The position numbers and the translations under genes are program-made. The notes beneath the pieces are model-generated. The model was not told the DNA's origin, did not search any database, and saw nothing but the letters and a program-made list of their open reading frames with translations. A stretch of 64,000 bases of DNA from Polytrichum commune (lineage: Eukaryota > Streptophyta > Polytrichopsida > Polytrichales > Polytrichaceae). The stretch is taken from assembly GCA_950295325.1 (NCBI GenBank), contig OX485803.1, positions 33,659,554 to 33,723,553 of the forward strand, read 5' to 3'. Position 1 is the first letter of the stretch. Every line of letters begins with the position of its first letter. Of the stretch, positions 41,006-56,460 are shown one piece after another.

Positions 41006-44000
41006 ATGGCGGGGGGTGTGGTGAACGTGGTCGGACCGAAGCGCACCTATGAAGGGAGGACCACTGTGTACGTGGCCCTGGCATGCATGGTGGCAGCCAG
41101 TGGCGGTCTCATCTTCGGTTATGATATCGGAATCTCCGGTACGCACATCTCCACCACTCTTCACATCCCCCAACAACCGAACATGCTTTTTTAAACTGTT
41201 GCCATCGATACTTCAACCGAGCTCATTTTCAGCAGATTAAGAAATCATGGTGTTTCTTCAGATTCTTGTACACTAGTGAACAAGTAGAGCCTCGGCAAGT
41301 TGGTGTTGTATGTTTGGCATGCATGCTTTCCACCGCCGCCTTTTTAAGCTCTCCCTTGGGGGCACCTCCGATCACTAACTTGGACAAGTATAGTACAGTT
41401 CTAGTTTCAAAGGGCAGGAGGGTAACCAAAATGACATCGATGTATTTGTGCTTCGTGCTCACCATGCATCCTTGAACTGAAGCCGAAGAAATAAAAAACT
41501 TCCTTGAACCTCACAGTACTTACGGTTCGTTCCGAACTAAGTGCAGGAGCTATCTATCTCCCTTTCCGTCATCGTTTCGCTCTCTTGCTGTTTCTGCCCT
41601 GAAAAACTTGGGCAGCCATATGGGGCATTTTGCATATGGTTCAGTGTTGCAGCTTTGTGTGCCACTAAGAGTTTCATTTCTCTCCTCTCAAGGGATATAA
41701 GAAAGTCATTGGGTTCGAGATTAATTTTTCTTGTAGAGATCCGAATTCGGGCGGCGTGCCTCCAATTACTGATGAGTAGACGTTTGAAAATAGTTTTAAA
41801 GAGCGCTGTAGTCTGGAATGACTGCCGGGTGGATTCTCTCAAAAACAAAAAAACACATTTTATTGTAGCTGCAAGTGCCTCACTAAGATTCATTCGGAGC
41901 TCATCAAGAGCTGAGCTATGTTCTCTTTCGTCGATTTCTTGCAACCTGTTCATAACCTTTGGCCCAGTTTCGGCAACAATGCTGCAAATTCGGCAGTTGT
42001 TAGTACATCACCGCTAATGTAATGGTGCTATAAGTCTTCTCTAGTTCATTCCGAGTGGAGAAATTTGACCAGAGATAGATGCTTTTGTCCGAGCCTTTTT
42101 GTTCAGCTACTGTTTAGCGGGTATCTAGTCAGGTAGCAGTTGGAAGTGAAGGTGCAGGGTAGAAGGAATTAAGCGGAGGATGAGTGTGGATTATTTGCAG
42201 GGGGTGTGACGTCTATGGATGATTTCTTGGTGAAGTTCTTCCCGGTGGTGTACCGCGCGAAAGGAGTCCAAGAGAGCCATTACTGCAAATATGACAACCA
42301 GGGGTTGCAAGCGTTCACATCTTCGCTCTACCTGGCTGCTCTGGTCGCCAGTTTCGTCGCTTCCGTCACCACTCGAGTGCTGGGCCGTAAAATTACCATG
42401 CTCATCGGAGGATTGTCATTCCTTCTTGGTGCCAGCTTGAATGCCGCTGCCCAGGACCTAGCCATGCTCATTGTGGGTCGTCTCTTCCTTGGATTCGGCG
42501 TCGGCTTCGCCAATCAGGTCTGCAACATCTCTCGTTCAAAATCTTTCACACAATGCTCCAGGCTTTTGTGGTTGACTGTATGTGGATAATGTACCAGAGA
42601 TGATAAGCATTGGGTGTACCTGAGTGGGGTGGGTGGCCGCAAGCCGGATCCCCCCAATGCCCATTCTCTATCGTTGAAAGAGAATAATTATGCACATTCA
42701 TTGAACAACTTGGTTAACAACTTGTTAGATTATATGACATTCTTCTGAATGAACTCGAGGTAGATCATGTGTTTGAATGTAAGATTCACCATGAGAAACT
42801 TCGGGAGGAAGGCAAATTGATCTCTTCCTGATGGAAATGACAAACTTGAATTTCACTACTATGATAATGCTGGGTGGAAATTCTGACATAAAGAAGAAAT
42901 TTTCATACATTAATGCTAATATACCATGGTACAGTTTCTAAATTTAACCCTGTATTCTGTCAAAAATGAGATACAGAATACTGACAAATTCAGGAACTGT
43001 GTTGGCATGCAGGCTGTGCCATTGTATTTGTCGGAGATGGCACCCGCGCACATCCGAGGCAGACTCAACATCATGTTCCAGATGGCCACCACCATCGGAA
43101 TTCTTGTCGCCGCTCTCGTGAATTATGGCACGCAGAGTGTGACACCGAATGGTTGGCGCATCTCTCTCGGGTTAGCCGGTGTCCCTGCCATTTGCCTCAC
43201 TTTGGGCGGCCTCTTCTGCCCGGAGACACCAAACAGCTTGATTGAGCGAGGCAAGCTGGAAAAAGGGCGGCGCGTGCTGGTTCGAATTCGCGGCACAGAA
43301 CATGTTGATGCCGAGTATGACGACATGGTAGAGGCGAGCGAGATTGCCAAAAGGGTAAGCAAGATGCTTAAGTGCTTTCTAATCATGTGCACAAGTGCCG
43401 CACACTGCGTTCAGTTTCGGACACCCATGTGATGAGATAATTAGTTTCAAACATGCCACAAAGGATTTATTATCACTCTTAATCAATGACAACATGCCAT
43501 GTGGCACTTAGGCATTCTCGACTAGAATAATCATGTATGAACTGACAGACCCATAGAGTAGAAGAGGAAGAAAATTAAAAATAGACCAAGCTTGGGAAAG
43601 CTTGTCGTCATAACTTTGATAAGAGATCAAGTGATCTCTTCAGTAATCTCATTGACAACCACACCAATTTGTCGTATTCCCATCCTGTTGGAATGCATTA
43701 ACATTTGGAGTTACACGTTGTTATAACTTTTTATTGAGAATAACATCTTTTACCAAGATAACATAAGTAGCTAGTATGCACATCAAGCAAATGGAAATGG
43801 AGTTGCCTTTGTTAAATTTTGGAGTTTGTAATTTCTGCATTTTGTTTAAACCATGAGTTTTCTCGCAGGTGAAGCACCCGTTCCGCAACATATTGCAGAG
43901 GAGGAACCGACCTCAACTCATAATGGCACTCCTCATCCCATTCTTCCAGCAGTTCACAGGCATCAACGCCATCATGTTCTACGCCCCTGTCCTGTTCAAC

Positions 44001-45574
44001 ACCATTGGCTTCGGCAGTAACGCATCCTTGTACTCATCTGTCATCACGGGTGCTGTGAATCTGGTGGCCACGTTTGTGTCACTCATTTATGCGGATAAAG
44101 TGGGACGGCGAGTGCTGTTTCTAGAAGGAGGTGTCCAGATGCTTGTCTCCCAGGTTCGTGGACACTAATTCCCATTCAATGATTGGCCACTTACTTCAAA
44201 GTTATATATAAATTTGGTGACAATGCCAATTACAACCATCATGTTCACATACAATTTAAACCCATAGACAATGTTATGTATTGTCAACTACAGTACATAA
44301 CGTTGTGAATCCAGTAATTGCCTTTATTGAGAACATGACGAGAGTCAGAGAGAATCACGTACTTCACCTCAACGGTGTAGACCCATGAGGTAGGTGATCA
44401 GAATCCAGATAAGAATTTCATTTCTTTCCAAAACCTGTCAATCAGGAACTTGACAACGCTGTTGTCATTGTTTGCGGGAATGGAAACTCACTCAGCCTTC
44501 ATTGAGTGAGTTAGACAGAATTTATCATCTGACAGCTTCTTCAAACACTTCTAATTTTTCTGGTAGAACAGCAAATCAGTCAACAGATCATTACTGCACC
44601 AATTCATTTAGATTTCATGATTTATAGGCCCAATAATGACACAGTACGGTATTGATATGTTGACTGATTTATTGTTGGCTGATTTTCTTGAGCGTGTTTA
44701 AGATAGACGGGTCTTAAATGGTTACTTCTCTGACTAGCTAGCTCACTTCTCCTAGGATATGAAACAAGCGAACAGTACGAGAGGGTTAGCAAATCCAAAT
44801 TGAGGTTGTAGCCACTTTTCTCATAAATTTTGAAGTTCACATGAGCACCTTATTCATTATCAAAGTGTAGATTCTTGTGCTTATTAAATTTTCATGTAGG
44901 TCCCCTCAATAATGTTGACTATTGAGTCTAGACTAGTCATCATATTCGAGCATGCAATTCAATCTTTTATAAATACGTGTCTTTGGTATCTGTTCTTGGA
45001 GCCACACCAAACTACATACCACTCAAATATAGGTGTCCGATTAAGAGGGCATGTCTACCTTATTCCATTCTCGCCAAATTGTTTGTTGTTATTCATGCAG
45101 GTGGCGATCGCAGTCATTCTGGCACTCAAATTCGGAGGCAATACAAGTCTCTCGAAAGCCGATGCGACAGCAATTGTGGTGCTCGTGTGCATCTATGTCT
45201 CCGCATTTGCATGGTCGTGGGGTCCTCTCGGGTGGCTCGTGCCAAGTGAGATTTTTCCTCTAGAGACTCGCTCGGCCGGCCAAAGTATCACGGTTTCCAC
45301 CAACATGTTGTTCACCTTCGTCATCGCCCAGGCGTTCCTCACCATCTTGTGTCACTTCCAGTATGGAATCTTCCTCTTCTTCGCGGGTTGGGTGGTCATC
45401 ATGACAATTTTCATCTACTTCTTCTTGCCGGAGACCAAGAATGTGCCAATTGAGGAGATGATCTACGTGTGGCGCCGACACTGGTTTTGGAAGCGCATCG
45501 TTCCGGCCGAGGATCCCGAGCATGAGTATTCTCACGGACCCTCCAACGGCATGAAGAAAAGTGCCGATGTCTGA
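41006..45574 (+). CDS. STP: STP-type monosaccharide/H+ symporter, five exons
   Basis: Major-facilitator sugar transporter of the plasma membrane. The plant STP family imports hexoses with protons. Exons are 41006-41138, 42201-42517, 43013-43354, 43869-44153 and 45101-45574. All introns are GT-AG, phases agree, and the protein is 516 residues, the usual STP length. Seen in order: cytosolic N-terminus, TM1 with [14 protein letters not shown], the STP loop with C ([13 protein letters not shown]), the RVLGRK loop, [14 protein letters not shown] with [10 protein letters not shown], and [11 protein letters not shown] before the central loop. The second half has [19 protein letters not shown], the DKVGRR loop, [18 protein letters not shown] and the terminal [12 protein letters not shown]. 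All sugar-transporter signatures are intact, so it is probably functional. Intron 1 is 1,062 bp, and intron 3 carries a MITE fragment. The exact sugar cannot be read from sequence. Confidence 0.92.
43701..43782 (-). mobile_element. MITE fragment inside transporter intron 3
   Basis: It matches the minus strand of about 33,141-33,225. Shared phrases are 'catttggagt', 'aacatct', 'aacataagtag' and 'gtatgcac'. Only one arm and part of the interior remain. Confidence 0.55.
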
Positions 45575-48000: not shown

Positions 48001-48245
48001 GGAATATTGTGAGGTATGTATGTGTAGGTAGATATTTCTTGTGTGGACTAGTTTGGGTTGATTGTTTCGAGTCGGCCAAGGGACCAGATTTGGAGCTTAA
48101 TGTCGTGAGTCATCTTTGTGTAGATAGAGTTGACTTGTTTAGACTAGTTCGGCCTAGTTGTTAATGGGCTAGACTTGGACCCTCTCGGATCTGAGAGGGT
48201 CATGGGGTAGGATCATAAGGACCAGATTTTGATTGGAATGTTGTG
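47985..48245 (+). repeat. Tandem repeat, about 90-110 bp, three partial units
   Basis: 'aaggaccagattt(g/t)gag...tg(g/t)aatgt(c/t)gtgag' recurs at about 47,988, 48,080 and 48,215. The first two units continue with matching 'gtgtag(g)taga...gactagtt(t/c)ggg/cct' text. Confidence 0.65.
48178..48201. repeat. Perfect inverted repeat GACCCTCTC-6-GAGAGGGTC
   Basis: 9-bp perfect arms around GGATCT. The arm resembles the core of the 54-62-kb arrays (ctctcgg...ccgagag). A half copy, 'ccgagagggtcatg', lies at 51,567 in the relic's linker. Confidence 0.8.
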
Positions 48246-48499
48246 AGGCAGACAAGAGAAGAAACTTCGATCCCCGGGGGGGACCGACGTGAATGAAGTG
48301 TCTGTTCATTCCACCCCTAAACCTATGTCCACGGGACATAGGAGTAGAAGTGAGGAACTACTTCCCCCTTTCGAGAGTAGACACTATAGTCACAAGTAAC
48401 CAGTAACAAATAAGAGCCAGTAACCAATATTGGTTAATGGCACAAAGGGAGACTGTACCCAAGGGATGGTTTAATATAGGGTTTGTTTTGTTTAGTTTG

Positions 48500-49165
48500 A
48501 TCTAGGGAGTTTTTAGGGGGGATCTTGCATTTGAGGTAGAGGTTGGTGATTTTCAAGTCTTTTTTTGTGGAGCAAGATGGACATGGCGTATTGTATCGCA
48601 ATGGTATTAATGTTTTTGAAGGTATTTCGGATGGATGGCATAGGTATTTTAAATTTGTCTTCCAGTAGTTTCATTGATGGGATGTGTGTTGCGGCTCTGG
48701 CGCCTGCTGTAATAACAATAAGCGGGTAGGTTTTCCAACCTAGGGTAGCAATGCTTTCTATCAGTGGTTGGTATTTGTTAGTTTTGGCTTCTAGAGTTGC
48801 TGGTGAAAATCAATCATTACAGTATGTGAATTCAATGAATTGTATGGTAACTGTTTGGTCTACATTTGTGGGGGGTGTATTTTGATATGGTAGTCCTTTA
48901 ACGCAAAGAATGTCGGGTTTAAAACGGGAGTTGCAATGGCATCTTTGGGTTCCACATGTGCAGGGTAATAACCAGTTAGGGACGGTGTTTTCTTGGGGGT
49001 TGTCATTAAAGGTGCCAACGTTCATAAGGGTGTAGCATCGGGATTTTTCAGATGAGATTAGTAGTTTCCTTATTTCCCATACTGCTTTGTTATGTCTTTT
49101 TACGTGTAGAGAGTGAATATGTTGTTGCCTACATGTGAGTAGTACATGTAGCCATGTGTCAGGTC
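48500..49165 (-). pseudogene. Cys/His cluster plus PD-(D/E)XK (restriction-like) endonuclease of the retroelement
   Basis: The reading follows the RNase H frame after a frameshift near 49,165. It shows WLHVLLTCRQQH (a C..H..C zinc-type tail after CPIYNS), then PNWLLPCTCGTQRCHC, RFKPDILCV, IQFIEFTYCND, and in a third frame TLEAKTNKYQPLI, LGWKTYPLIVITAGARAATH. The order PD..., hydrophobic strand with E, then K..KY is that of the restriction-like endonucleases found at the C-terminus of some non-LTR retrotransposons. Those enzymes nick the target DNA to prime reverse transcription. A TGA after YCND and one more frameshift break this copy. Part of it (48,810-49,025) is an open frame. Family assignment is by motif order only. 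Confidence 0.6.
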
Positions 49166-50032
49166 GTATGAGTTATAGATGGGACAGGTGATGGTGGGGA
49201 ATCTTTGTCTACCAAAGAAGAGTTGTTTTCTGGCTTGGCCCATGTAAGTTCCTGTACGAAATTTGATAAGACATGACTTCTGTTTGTCCGTAATAGTAGG
49301 GTTATTCCAGAATTCGTTAGAAAATTCCTTGTCAATGTGTTCATTGCCTATCCATTTCCAAATATTAGGGGCTTGTGTGGCCATGTTTTCTAAATTGTTT
49401 GTTCTGTCATATTTTTTGATTTGTTTTTCTAGGAATCTGACTGGGCCCTTGTCTGGCGTGTCTATCATGGAGGGCCATTTGTCTTTTTGATAGTAGTAAG
49501 GTGTGGCATGAGCGTGTTCGTGTGGGTGTATGGCATTTCTATGGGTAAGGTCCAGTCCTTCTTTTGCTAATTTATCTGCTTGTTCGTTGCCGTCTATGTT
49601 GACATGTGCTCTAACTTTGTACAATGTGGTTGGTTGAGAGCGTTTTTGGAGTAATTTTACCATGGAGGCAAGTGTGACTTGGTCTGGGTGACTATTGTGT
49701 AGTGTGGGGTGTTTGATTTGTGTGTTTAGTAGGTATAGGACATTGAGGCTATCGGTGAATATATATGCAGGCTCGTTTGGGTATTGGTCGTTGATAATTC
49801 GCAATGTTTTATGTATAGCCATCATTTCTGCTCTGAGGATATTCTGGTGTCCATATAGCCTTTCGGCTATACTTAGTCCTTTAGGGCTATAGATACCATA
49901 TCCTGCCGTTTCTTTCCTCCATACTCCGGTAGAGATTAGTTTGGGTTCTTTGAATGAGCCATCGGTGTAATAACTAAATTGTGGATGGTATTTCAATGGT
50001 AAGTTAGTTTGGTAGTCCGGTAGTTGAGGCAT
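49100..50032 (-). CDS. RNase H domain of the retroelement (fragment of a broken polyprotein)
   Basis: An open frame of 310 residues. The RNase H fold is plain: YYTDGSFKEP (first Asp), LRAEMMAIHKTL (Glu), AYIFTDSLNVLYLL (second Asp), and HVNIDGNEQADKLAKEGL (final Asp). All four catalytic acids are kept. RNase H removes the RNA strand after first-strand synthesis. About 130 residues follow, with FWNNP...KSCLIKFRTGTYMG, leading into CPIYNS. Then the frame is lost and the zinc-type/endonuclease region goes on in another frame. Upstream, the frame is separated from the methyltransferase-like ORF by a stop and a shift around a C14 tract (50,101-50,114). The methionine at 50,032 is probably not a natural start. 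Confidence 0.8.
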   Translation of the reverse strand: MPQLPDYQTNLPLKYHPQFSYYTDGSFKEPKLISTGVWRKETAGYGIYSPKGLSIAERLYGHQNILRAEMMAIHKTLRIINDQYPNEPAYIFTDSLNVLYLLNTQIKHPTLHNSHPDQVTLASMVKLLQKRSQPTTLYKVRAHVNIDGNEQADKLAKEGLDLTHRNAIHPHEHAHATPYYYQKDKWPSMIDTPDKGPVRFLEKQIKKYDRTNNLENMATQAPNIWKWIGNEHIDKEFSNEFWNNPTITDKQKSCLIKFRTGTYMGQARKQLFFGRQRFPTITCPIYNSYDLTHGYMYYSHVGNNIFTLYT

Positions 50033-50079
50033 AGGTGATACATTGAGTATGGGGGTAAGTTAATTTGGACCACTTTTTG

Positions 50080-51201
50080 TTAGGGTTGACATGAGTATTC
50101 GGGGGGGGGGGGGGTGTGCATGGCAATCTGTGTGTATAGTTGTGTTATTGAGAGGTTATTTGCAATATGGGTGAGTTGATTTAGTTGTTCATAGGTGCCT
50201 ATGTGGTTATTTTGGTGGTGTATGCAGAGTATTTGTAGTGTGGAGAGTTCTTTCATAGGTATATTAAGTTCAAGTGGTATAGTAGGTTCTTCGTATGTGA
50301 TTGTATATGCCGCAAAGTGAGCGATAATATGTGTATCTGGGAATGGGCCCGAGTATGGGTTGAAGTTTTGGTACCAATTTGTGTCAGGTGAGATGATTAT
50401 TGTGATGTTGCTTGGGTCATCTTTGGCGGCAAGACGGGCCCAATGTGTAGCCTGTAGTAGGTCTGTAGCGTTGTTGGGGTGGACAAAGCCTATTCCATTC
50501 CATTTGTGGTCGAAGGCTTTCCCTAATGATCCAAATATTTTATCTCGTGCGAATGGAGAGTAAAATCTATTAAGTTGTGTAGGGCATGTGACTGGGGATG
50601 AGAAGTATGAATGGCTAATGTTGAATGATGTGATGAGAAAATTTAATATTGGAGTTGGTAATGTGTATTGGGCTAGTTTTAGAGGGTCATTTTTTGGGAT
50701 CCGGTATTTGTACCTTTGGTATAACCATACTATTTCAGTTTCGAATGATTGTGTAGGTGGTTCTAACCCATGTGGGGTATTTTGTGCGAGTTGGTATTGT
50801 TTCCAGAGCCAATGTAGTCTAGTTTTGGGAATGGTAATGAGGTGCCGTCCCTTGTCTTCATATATGTGGGCAACATCAAAATGCGTTTGGATAGTATTTG
50901 TGGCGGTTTCTATGTCACTTTCGAGGTTACACTTATGGATAGAGATACGTGCCATTGGGATAATCGTTGCGGGGGTGACATATCTCGTGTCTCGTTGTTG
51001 TTCTGTGGCAAAGTGAGCATTTATTAAGTTTGAGTAGTGTTTATGTTGTTTTTCAGTATAGTATTGTGTTAGTAGTCCAGAGTTGTGTGCACATGTGTTA
51101 GCTTCGTACCAAGGGAACATGTCTCTTTGGGTTAGCCATTTATTATAGGTGTTATGGTTGTTTATTATCCATTGGCATAGATATGATGTGTCTTTTTTCA
51201 T
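50080..51201 (-). CDS. PCIF1-like methyltransferase-like domain of the retroelement (broken polyprotein segment)
   Basis: An open frame of 373 residues with no RT motif. The core reads LHWLWKQYQ, FETEIVWLYQRY, LPTPILNFLITSFNIS, HSYFSSPVT, FYSPFARDKIFGSLGKAF, GIGFVHPNN, ATHWARLAAK, NITIIISPDTNW. This order (W-rich lead, F-S-S-P, FGS-x-G, a strand ending at an N/H-P motif, a helix, then a hydrophobic strand ending in W) matches my knowledge of the PCIF1/CAPAM family, which methylates cap-adjacent adenosine. The NPPF catalytic motif is replaced by HPNN, so activity is doubtful here. It lies between the linker (51,226-51,657) and RNase H. An unrelated function is possible. The start at 51,201 is arbitrary. 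Confidence 0.5.
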   Translation of the reverse strand: MKKDTSYLCQWIINNHNTYNKWLTQRDMFPWYEANTCAHNSGLLTQYYTEKQHKHYSNLINAHFATEQQRDTRYVTPATIIPMARISIHKCNLESDIETATNTIQTHFDVAHIYEDKGRHLITIPKTRLHWLWKQYQLAQNTPHGLEPPTQSFETEIVWLYQRYKYRIPKNDPLKLAQYTLPTPILNFLITSFNISHSYFSSPVTCPTQLNRFYSPFARDKIFGSLGKAFDHKWNGIGFVHPNNATDLLQATHWARLAAKDDPSNITIIISPDTNWYQNFNPYSGPFPDTHIIAHFAAYTITYEEPTIPLELNIPMKELSTLQILCIHHQNNHIGTYEQLNQLTHIANNLSITQLYTQIAMHTPPPPEYSCQP

Positions 51202-51225
51202 TATTCCATTGGAGTTAGTGTATTG

Positions 51226-51720
51226 TCATTTTTTATGGTCAAGGATGGTGTGAATAGGAAATTGCCTAGGGTTTTTAAGCACGTCTCTTGGTGGGGGTGG
51301 GTAATGTGGGTGGGGTGGGTTTGGGGGGTGTAGTGGCGGCTCAGGTTGTCTGGGGAGAATGTTATGATTTGTTATTATGTAGTTTTCTTTTAGGGTTCTG
51401 GGTAGGTAGTGGTGCGGGCATGGTTGTTGACATTGAGGGGGACAGTGGGGGTGACAAAATAGTTGTTGAGCAATGTTTAGTGCACTTTTGATTAGTTTGG
51501 TAGGGTTGGAATAATAGTTTTTTAAATCATTTGGGCTCATCATGTTGAGGCCATTGGGTAGAGTATCCGAGAGGGTCATGAAGCAGGATGGGAAACTTAG
51601 GAGTGTGAGCGGAGAGCGGAAAATTTTGACTTTGTTGGGTAAAAATAGGACAAGCAATGCCTATTTCCGTGGAATTTATAGATAGTTTGAATTCAATTTG
51701 TTGGAAAGACACCCCAATCT
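51226..51720 (-). pseudogene. Pro/Cys/His-rich linker of the retroelement
   Basis: The open frame at 51,226-51,657 reads NMMSPNDLKNYY, KLIKSALNIAQQLFC, HPHCPPQCQQPCPHH and a long Pro/His tract ending ...DHKK*. The Cys/His spacing could bind metal. Its first part resembles the last part of the RT relic at about 18,310-18,400 (TPEEFCTTYK, IKDALQQAY), which places RT upstream of this linker in an intact element. Nothing upstream of about 51,720 aligns with RT, so this copy is probably 5'-truncated. Confidence 0.5.
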
Positions 51721-53690: not shown

Positions 53691-53839
53691 GTCTTTGCAC
53701 CCATATCCACCTTTGCGGCACCCACCAACAAGTTTGGAACCAAGACCGTCAATTGTACATCTTCGTCCAAATACAATGCAAGAGGCTCCATCACGTGGGA
53801 TTGGCGCGATCTTCCCCAACTTGATGCGCAAACCTCAAC

Positions 53840-54275
53840 GAGTTACAAAATGAGAAACATTCATCATATGAATCCAACCTTTATGAAATGTGGCCAAGAG
53901 CTAAACATTTACTCAAACATTAAAGATTTCTGAAATATGGCCGAGAGCTAAAACTTAACTCAAACATTCTAGATTTTTGATATTCGGCCGAGAGGCAAAC
54001 CTTAAGTCAAACATTCAAGCATTGTGAAATGTGGCCGAGAGCTAAAACTTAACTCAAACATTCAAGATTATTGATATTCGGCCGAGAGCTAAACCTTAAG
54101 TCAAACATTCAAGCATTCTAAAATGTGGCCAAGAGCTAAACATTGACTCAAACATTCAAGATTTCTGAAAAGTGGCCGAGAGCTAAAACTTAACTCAAAC
54201 ATTCAAGATTTTTTATATTCGGCTGAGCGCTAAACCTTAAGTCAAACATTCAAGCATTCTGAATTGTGGCCGAAT
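53840..54275 (+). repeat. Tandem array of 'tggccgagagctaaa' units
   Basis: About nine units of 45-50 bp, built on 'gtggccgagagctaaaactt' plus 'aactcaaacattcaagatt'. They alternate between 'gaaatgtggcc' and 'gatattcggcc' starts. The same unit reappears once at 62,788-62,835, beyond the right-hand array, and partially at 55,388 and 55,876. Confidence 0.8.
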
Positions 54276-55349
54276 CCTCTAGCCTATCAGAACCGAGACC
54301 CTTAGATTACACACATGATCAACCAAAAAAAACACCAAAATTTGGTGAGAGGGGCCGAAGCCTCTAGCCTCTCGGAACCGAGACCCTTAGCCTATCCACA
54401 TGATCAACCAAAAAAAGATTCAAAATTTGGTGTTAGGGGCCGAATCATGTACCCTCCAAAAAAAACTTCAAAATCTGGTATAAGGGGCCGAATCCACAAG
54501 CTTCTCGGAACCGAGACCCTTAGCCTACCCACATGATCAACCAAAAAAAATTCAAAATATGGTGTAAGGGGCTGAATCATGTACCCTCCAAAAAAAACTT
54601 CAAAATATGGTATAAGGGGCCGAATCCACAAGCCTCTCGGAACCGAGACCCTTAGCCTACCCACATGATCAACCAAAAAAAACTTCAAATCTGGTATAAG
54701 GAGCCGAATCCTCTAGCCTCTCGAAACCGAGAATCTTAGCCTACCCACATGATCAACCAAAAAAAGATTCAAAATCTGGTGTTAGAGGCCGAATCATGTA
54801 CCCTCCAAAAAAAACTTCAAATATGGTATAAGGAGCCGAATCCTCTAGCCTCTCGGAACCGAGACTCTTAGCCTACCCACATGATCAACCAAAAAAAGAT
54901 TCAAAATCTGGTGTTAGGGGCCGAATCATGTACCCTCCAAAAAATACTTCAAAATCTGGTATAAGGGGCCGAATCCACAAGCCTCTCGGAACCGAAACCC
55001 TTAGCCTCCCCACATGATCAACCAAGAAAAACTTCAAAATCTGGTTTAAGGAGCCGAATCCTCTAGCCTCTCGGAACCGAGACTCTTAGCCTACCCACAT
55101 GATCAACCAAAAAAAGATTCAAAATCTGGTGTTAGGGGCCGAATCATGTACCCTCCAAGAAAAACTTCAAAATCTGGTATAAGGGGCCCGAATCCTCCAG
55201 CCTCTCGGAACCAAGACCCTTAGCCTCCCCACATTATCAACCAATAGAAACTTCAAAATCTGGTATAAGGAGCCTAATCCTTTAGCCTCTCGAAACCGAG
55301 ATCCTTAGCCTACCCACATGATCAACTGATAAAAATTCAAAATTTGGTG

Positions 55350-56115
55350 TAAGAGGGCGAACCTCTAACATCCGACCTTCTTGAATTGTGGCCGAGAGCT
55401 ACCCAACCAACACTGGCATTTGTTATGTAGCACATGGGCTTGGAAGTATTCCAATGTGAAAAGGGTGCACAAGGATGTGATCATCATTGGGATGATATTC
55501 GTTTGGATTGCTCTAGATTAATGGGGTGAATCTTACCTTGATTGGGGGATCATAGCTAATACTAACGAGCTGCAATCTTTATCATTATGACTATAATGCC
55601 ACATGCAAAAATCTGGTGGATACCCCCAACCCCCAACCCCCCAACCTCTCAACCCCCCAACCCCTCAACCCCCCAACCCCCAACCTCTCGGAACCGAGAC
55701 CCTTAGCCTACCCACATGATGAACCGAAAAAAAACATCAAAATTTGGTATAAGGAGCCGAATCCTCTAGCCTCTCGGAACCGAAACCCTTAGCCTACCCA
55801 CATGATCAACCAAAAAAAAATTTCAAAATATGGTGCAAGGGGGCAAACCTCCAACATCCAACCTTCTTGAATTGTGGCCGAGAGCTACCCAACCAACACT
55901 TGCATTTGTTATGTAGCACATGGGATTGGAAGTATTCCAATGTGAAAAGGGTGTACGGGGATGTGACCATCATTGGGATGATATTCGTTTGGATTGCACC
56001 AGATCAATGGGTTGAATATTAATTTGATTGGGGGATCATAGCTAATACTAACGGGGATGCAATCTTTATCATTATGACTATAATGCCACATGCAAAAATC
56101 TGGTGCATACCCCCA
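55350..56115 (+). repeat. Duplicated 265-bp block within array A
   Basis: 55,350-55,620 and 55,845-56,115 are nearly the same, with shared 'attgtggccgagagctaccc', 'tgggatgatattcgtttgga' and 'ctataatgccacatgcaaaa'. A 'ccccaacccccaac' minisatellite at 55,623-55,684 sits between them. Confidence 0.85.
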
Positions 56116-56460
56116 ACCCCTTAACTTGAGAAATATCAAGCCAACCAACAAAGATTCAACCTGTCCACCCGAACCTCCTTAGACAACAAAAAATGTGGTG
56201 CATACCCCCAACTCCTGAACCCTCTCGGAACCGAGAGGGTCCCGACATTTTCCAACCCCTTAACTTGAGAAATATCAACCCAACCAACAAAGATTCAACC
56301 CGTCCACCCGAACCTCCCTAGACAACCAACAATCAAGTGCATACCCCCAACCCCTAGACCCTCTCGGAACCAAGAGGGTCCCTACATTGTCCAACCCATT
56401 AACTTGAGACATATCAATCCAACCACCAAAGATTCAATTCGTCAACCCGACCTCTCTAGA
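56113..56460 (+). repeat. Three 140-bp repeats separated by long palindromes
   Basis: 'ttaacttgagaaatatca' with 'caaccaacaaagattcaa' occurs at 56,117, 56,260 and 56,399. Between units lie ACCCTCTCGG-AA-CCGAGAGGGT (56,219-56,240, perfect) and a one-mismatch version at 56,357-56,380. Confidence 0.85.

Follow-up and report, generated by a model that had tools for sequence, protein, structure and literature searches.

Dualen (RandI) elements are long interspersed nuclear elements (LINEs) for which an apurinic/apyrimidinic (AP)-type endonuclease, a PD-(D/E)XK-like endonuclease and an RNase H are listed in the published descriptions compared here (PMC3636483, PMC4640811), and they have been reported from relatives of Chlamydomonas (PMC8226300) and from cryptophytes (PMC12747079). 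In the R2 group a PD-(D/E)XK-like endonuclease comes after the reverse transcriptase (RT); the group is set apart in the classification consulted from the groups with AP endonuclease (PMC3636483). Here we describe a locus in a stretch of 64,000 nucleotides from the moss Polytrichum commune (contig OX485803.1, positions 33,659,554 to 33,723,553 of the forward strand; hereafter the window), which holds on its minus strand a dead, truncated copy of a multi-family LINE. An integral, selected part of this LINE is a domain resembling PCIF1 (CAPAM), the cap-adenosine N6-methyltransferase, and the reading which we favour, with some reserve, is that this domain probably acts as a non-catalytic binding module.

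The moss element resembles Dualen/RandI, which the initial annotation of the window had named for its restriction-like nuclease with RNase H, in that it unites an AP-type endonuclease, a PD-(D/E)XK-like endonuclease (the latter by motif) and an RNase H. Two of its parts do not appear in the descriptions compared, namely the PCIF1-like domain that separates RT from RNase H and the 2A-like motif ahead of the AP endonuclease. The element may be called Dualen/RandI-like by its domain set, not by RT phylogeny, and is not a proven member, because AP-type endonuclease and RNase H were found, the second endonuclease is recognised by motif and the RT was compared with R2 and L1 only. With R2-type LINEs, which provide the closest RT of known structure, it shares a C-terminal CCHC motif and, behind it, a restriction-like nuclease block (in the moss element by motif); to our knowledge, R2 has neither RNase H nor a PCIF1-like domain. 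The NPGP ahead of the AP endonuclease recalls the 2A sequences which Odon in 2013 reportedly described in LINEs with this type of endonuclease, from which the moss element differs by having RNase H, the PCIF1-like domain and restriction-like motifs as well. The likeness to PCIF1 itself is one of sequence over the PCIF1_WW region, including an FGSxG stretch, whereas the element domain lacks NPPF, shows no WW match in the pieces scanned and sits in a retrotransposon polyprotein. A catalytically dead PCIF1 homologue has a parallel in Drosophila Pcif1, said by Franco in 2023 to be catalytic-dead yet functional, which is a cellular gene and not a mobile element. In the open-access literature, at the level of listings and abstracts, we found no description of a LINE with a PCIF1-like domain, and an earlier one is possible; nor did the abstracts and listings searched describe a Dualen element in a moss, bryophyte, liverwort, fern or hornwort.

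Domain order in the long-frame relatives

The seven large contigs of the source genome would agree with a moss of n=7, and its plastid contig, with rbcL (by PF00016) beside a frame of 315 residues taken for accD (L047 1021-3768), suggests a non-seed plant, probably a moss. The genome (about 408 Mb in 64 contigs) was searched at the DNA level with window positions 48500-51720, giving 41 listed matches at 81-100% identity, the query itself included (40 scored of 1,551 candidates). Four copies picked for their long open frames (L011-L014) have, within the stretches fetched, uninterrupted frames of the second open reading frame (ORF2) of 2,746, 2,757, 2,601 and 2,612 residues, the second and third copies being 99.6% identical over 8.2 kb. 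All four show the same order, namely a 2A-like NPGP, an AP-type endonuclease (APE), RT with the motifs YIDFKNAFGS and AYADD, a Cys/His/Pro stretch, the PCIF1-like domain, RNase H, a CCHC motif (C-x2-C-x9-H-x4-C) and a C-terminal block with RPDI/KPDI and FIEFTY. That the blocks belong to separate genes was ruled out by these ORF2 frames, each 2,601 residues or longer, which hold all of them. The initial annotation had read the window as a retroelement relic from one former polyprotein and had proposed looking for full-length copies with RT in the same frame; this reading is supported, and in the four copies RT does share the frame. Its four blocks are indeed all present on one strand, the minus strand, in the order given, with the naming of the fourth resting on motifs, and its contrast with plant LINEs of the AP type proved incomplete, since the element has an AP-type endonuclease too, upstream and seen in other copies.

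When 32 loci (31 fetched and the window), chosen by their match to the element or to PF12237 (PCIF1_WW), were surveyed, the blocks present kept the same order on one strand in every one of them. RT was unseen in three, the window included, and in every locus with all three domains the PCIF1-like one sat between RT and RNase H. Another copy, on contig C7 and covered by two overlapping stretches, has a long ORF2 that changes frame once and is interrupted by two stops. Upstream of it lies a frame of 688 residues from stop to stop (L008 2489-4552), clear in this one copy and without a Pfam match, which is a possible candidate for the ORF1 protein of the LINE. Fuller copies would encode such a long upstream frame, and they do encode one very long ORF2.

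The RT of copy L005 matches PF00078 (RVT_1) at E 1.1e-29, and the comparison with solved structures in the PDB gave E 6.6e-33 for R2 and 3.5e-20 for L1. The AP-type endonuclease shares one frame with RT in L011-L014; its segments match PF14529 in five of five members at E up to 0.1 and PF03372 in three of five, with the first member scoring under both curated cut-offs, and ExoIII was reached in the PDB at E 0.008. Columns N12, E41, D168, N170, D227, D252 and H253 are invariant in all five members, and we take them to have catalytic roles. RNase H, which had been annotated in the window with all four acidic residues, was recovered as such: the window frame 49103-50059 matches PF00075 at E 4.8e-13, relatives do so at 4.1e-13 (L006) and 1e-11 (L005), and D, E, D and D are readable in YTDGS, RAEM, FTDS and GNEQAD of the window. 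In the C-terminal block of 17 relatives the CCHC spacing and residues D126, E153, K169 and K172 are invariant (17/17) and the P of (R/K)PD is kept in 15, a pattern which suggests, at motif level, a putative restriction-like nuclease of PD-(D/E)XK type.

Upstream of the AP endonuclease, four copies differing by 15-49% in that stretch carry a 2A-like motif, GDI(E/K)xNPGP. The 2A (StopGo) consensus is of the type D-x-E-x-N-P-G-P; three copies read GDIESNPGP, GDIETNPGP and GDIEPNPGP, and L012 has GDIKPNPGP, without the E. This suggests a putative 2A that may release the region before the motif from the enzyme part. Since an MP is conserved directly after the motif (alignment A6), a start at this Met is an alternative to 2A-type release.

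The lineage seems to have been active recently, because four places tied at the top score, including that of the query, have a 258-residue segment at 100% identity, and because of the 99.6% identity between the two copies mentioned above. No relatives were found with domain, restriction-like endonuclease (RLE) or RT alignments in viral_contigs, nor with the domain alignment in genome_contigs, both collections being other than plant genomes. The 3' tails consist of short repeats, which are (TATC)n in L011-L014 and of TTCTC or CTT type in the window copy and in a number of relatives. The element most likely moves by target-primed reverse transcription, the known mechanism of LINEs, as its LINE family, the 5' truncation of the window copy and the short-repeat 3' tails would indicate. 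The 3' untranslated region (UTR) of L011-L014 also holds, no more than about 500 bases past ORF2, a hairpin sequence of GGTCCC/GGGACC type, which precedes the (TATC)n. On its antisense strand a stretch resembling a tRNA box B was noticed by eye; a tRNA-like reading was rejected, as ARAGORN found none in six loci and Rfam none in four loci and the window.

Likeness, lost motif and constraint of the PCIF1-like domain

The window frame 50083-51225 matches PF12237 at E 4.3e-10 (39.9 bits, the cut-off being 31.1; frame residues 155-260). A genome search with the same family gave at least 150 matches, all over the curated cut-off (best 150 scored of 697 candidates); the open frames that hold them reach 2,924 residues. 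For all ten members of a diverse domain alignment (A1), PF12237 is the one Pfam family matched at E 0.01. When a profile of the domain was run against 177,635 distinct PDB sequences, the only two reached at E<=1 were both vertebrate PCIF1 (6irx at 0.069, 6irv at 0.11), and hhalign of the domain with fragments of both gave E 3e-6 as a single comparison, at a probability of 88%. In the reverse direction, a 120-residue PCIF1 fragment of 6irx retrieved 117 genome matches at E<=1 (best 8.8e-4), and the top two belong to the element copies L033 and L006. The resemblance to PCIF1 put forward in the initial annotation is thus upheld by the Pfam match, the PDB profile search and hhalign. It could be argued that the block is a LINE-specific linker whose Pfam similarity is due to chance or contamination, as solved PCIF1 is reached at E 0.07-0.11 only; but with PCIF1 providing the sole two PDB sequences, with the hhalign value, and with a vertebrate fragment calling up these very elements from the genome, we regard a spurious match as very improbable.

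As to the source of the domain, the fragment search showed no cellular PCIF1 gene matching above the element copies in the genome, where introns could hide one. No WW domain was matched at E<=1 in L005 1415-5017, from RT to the domain, or in the other pieces scanned, which make up part of ORF2. Owing to this and to the missing NPPF, we call the domain PCIF1-like and not PCIF1.

PCIF1 depends on the motif NPPF, and changes of N553 and F556 are described in a review as a means of inactivating it (PMC10544176). At the position of this motif the 32 copies read HPHN (13), HPNN (7), HPHT (5), HPYN (2), HPPN (2), HPHP (1) and LPNN (1), with one copy unreadable (L034), so that NPPF occurs in none of the 31 readable copies; a search of the 32 rows for [DNS]PP[YFWH] in other parts of the domain found none. 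SYFSSPVTC and the FGSxG stretch, which align with FECFASPLNC and FGSRG of PCIF1, are nearly invariant, and many polar and aromatic residues are invariant (10 rows), also around the lost active site. Methylation of element RNA, which had been offered as a possible role, is unsupported because NPPF is absent from all readable copies and substitutions of N553 and F556 inactivate PCIF1. With the catalytic motif gone in every one of these, the domain most likely acts without methyl transfer, its fold being kept for binding.

Methyltransferase activity might persist in the domain, with HPxN as a variant of NPPF, and be directed at element RNA or DNA. The strongly conserved SSPVTC and FGSxG surroundings within a PCIF1-like sequence, the purifying selection described below and the two copies of 32 in which HPPN retains both prolines would suit such an enzyme, but each of the 31 readable copies has other residues in place of the N and F of the motif, 29 have lost its second P, no [DNS]PP[YFWH] was met in the rest of the domain, and substitution of N553 and F556 serves to inactivate PCIF1 (PMC10544176), all of which makes continued catalysis distinctly unlikely.

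The ratio of nonsynonymous to synonymous divergence (dN/dS) was computed after Nei-Gojobori for 14 chosen pairs, in stop-free pieces only. For the PCIF1-like domain it is 0.04-0.19 (11 of the 14 pairs computable, three saturated), as compared with 0.05-0.08 for RT (7 pairs), 0.07-0.12 for APE (4 pairs), 0.06-0.23 for RNase H (11 pairs) and 0.05-0.40 for the RLE block (11 pairs). Among pairs of lower divergence, L012/L014 (dS about 0.5) gave 0.10 for the domain and 0.05 for RT, and three further pairs (dS 0.34-0.54) gave 0.11-0.15 for the domain. The PCIF1-like domain is under purifying selection. Its divergence tracks that of RT over 26 loci, with rows stitched from tblastn pieces (r 0.79; none of 2,000 permutations as high), and together with the dN/dS values this shows that the domain has travelled with RT under constraint, less tightly held than RT. 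In a check that started from the RLE, a PCIF1-like place lies upstream of 91 of 147 RLE places among the matches listed in both lists. Every fifth of the other 56 was fetched, as a stretch ending short of RT. The domain is present, whole or in part, in 11 of these 12 stretches, and in the remaining one the match starts only inside the RNase H region.

Possible role of the domain in the element

We consider it probable that the PCIF1-like module binds element RNA, perhaps at its capped 5' end, and it may keep the template close to RT and RNase H. A number of points weigh against the favoured reading of an integral, selected and non-catalytic binding module. The use of stop-free pieces for dN/dS favours intact copies, and many dS values exceed 1 or are saturated. 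The RLE-first control spans near relatives of one query (83-100% identity), not remote families. The likeness to solved PCIF1 is weak when taken alone (E 0.089 in a separate comparison, besides the two values of the profile search), PF12237 itself might include LINE-derived sequences, and single-sequence fold prediction of the window domain gave no usable model (mean predicted local distance difference test score 37). The nuclease block, the last member of the proposed set, had no Pfam match in two window pieces and no credible one in the 17 relatives, and its one PDB match (E 0.4, to an unrelated synthase) is at chance level, so that of the nuclease originally named there the conserved motifs stand and a family or structural match does not. 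Lastly, the domain evolves more quickly than RT does (mean p-distance 0.353, as compared with 0.217).

The same difference in rate would agree with a structural connector, a captured fold that spaces RT from RNase H and has no ligand, as would the constant position of the domain between these two. We think this unlikely, for the dN/dS of the domain falls within the range of the enzymes, and a spacer does not readily account for the many invariant polar and aromatic residues, some of them near the lost active site. Returning to a binding module, a narrower version of it would be a captured PCIF1-type cap methyltransferase which has lost its chemistry and now senses the cap or 5' end as a pseudo-enzyme within the RT polyprotein, signalling to RT and RNase H that the template's capped 5' end is reached, or picking out full-length capped element RNA for retrotransposition; we regard this as a doubtful proposal.

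A cap-methyltransferase-like fold would thereby join the known parts of LINE proteins. To the question of how capped full-length RNA is recognised by LINEs and the 5' end of the copy completed, a conserved module of PCIF1 type next to RT and RNase H offers one answer that can be tested directly. The many mobile-element matches to Pfam PCIF1_WW in a plant genome could, besides, mislead surveys of the machinery for N6,2'-O-dimethyladenosine (m6Am).

The window copy and its surroundings

The copy of about 3.3 kb was delimited by blastn against seven other genomic copies fetched with their flanks, and its features are collected below. Edges at 48500 and 51720, as first annotated, are to be replaced by about 48250 and 51564. 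Comparison with the seven copies places the 3' end at about 48234-48255. Their homology to the window ends at 51564 (at 51560 in one) and their 5' flanks are still alike beyond this point (150 bases, by eye); the window copy is therefore 5'-truncated there. A complete non-autonomous element of 3.3 kb, suggested by most listed copies ending at one query position, was ruled out by these flanks and by the frames lying upstream.

Features of the window copy, and 2A-like motif stretches of four relatives (positions in the respective fetched stretch)
Feature	Position	Strand	Basis and remarks
5'-truncated LINE copy	48250..51564	-	5' breakpoint 51564; blastn against seven copies, flank comparison
Post-RT region with Cys/His/Pro-rich linker; stop codon 51226-51228	51226..51564	-	Reading frames, alignment to relative
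PCIF1-like domain	50107..51225	-	PF12237 match 50446-50763; domain end from alignment to relative
HPNN at the place of PCIF1 catalytic NPPF	50470..50481	-	Alignment with PCIF1
RNase H domain and following region, second frame	49163..50068	-	Pfam match 49553-49975
End of CCHC motif and restriction-like endonuclease motifs (KPDI, IEFTYCND), third frame	48516..49163	-	Motif level; stop 48810-48812
3' UTR with pyrimidine-rich (TTCTC-type) tail	48250..48515	-	Flank comparison
2A-like motif stretch	L008 5272-5988		
2A-like motif stretch	L011 1150-1815		
2A-like motif stretch	L012 1139-1861		
2A-like motif stretch	L014 8478-9197		

Aligned with ORF2 of a relative, the window copy falls into three main pieces in three frames, each with one stop inside, and a piece of 19 residues that overlaps; the second Cys of its CCHC motif reads Tyr. 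It is a dead, frame-broken, 5'-truncated LINE insertion. Its longest stop-free sense frame has 381 codons; in 1,000 mononucleotide shuffles of this A/C-rich strand no such frame exceeded 207.

A 25-base repeat at 48189-48213 and 51565-51589 (84% identical) was not accepted as a target-site duplication, because it lies about 36 bases off the 3' end, is part of locally repeated sequence and shows greater divergence than the copy does from its nearest relatives (3-4%). Satellite-like arrays with spacings of 47 and 85 bases lie at window positions 53825-56390, together with a palindromic repeat of CTCTCGG type which recurs at 48178-48201. On the plus strand, at 43857-45574, lie pieces of a sugar transporter gene (PF00083).

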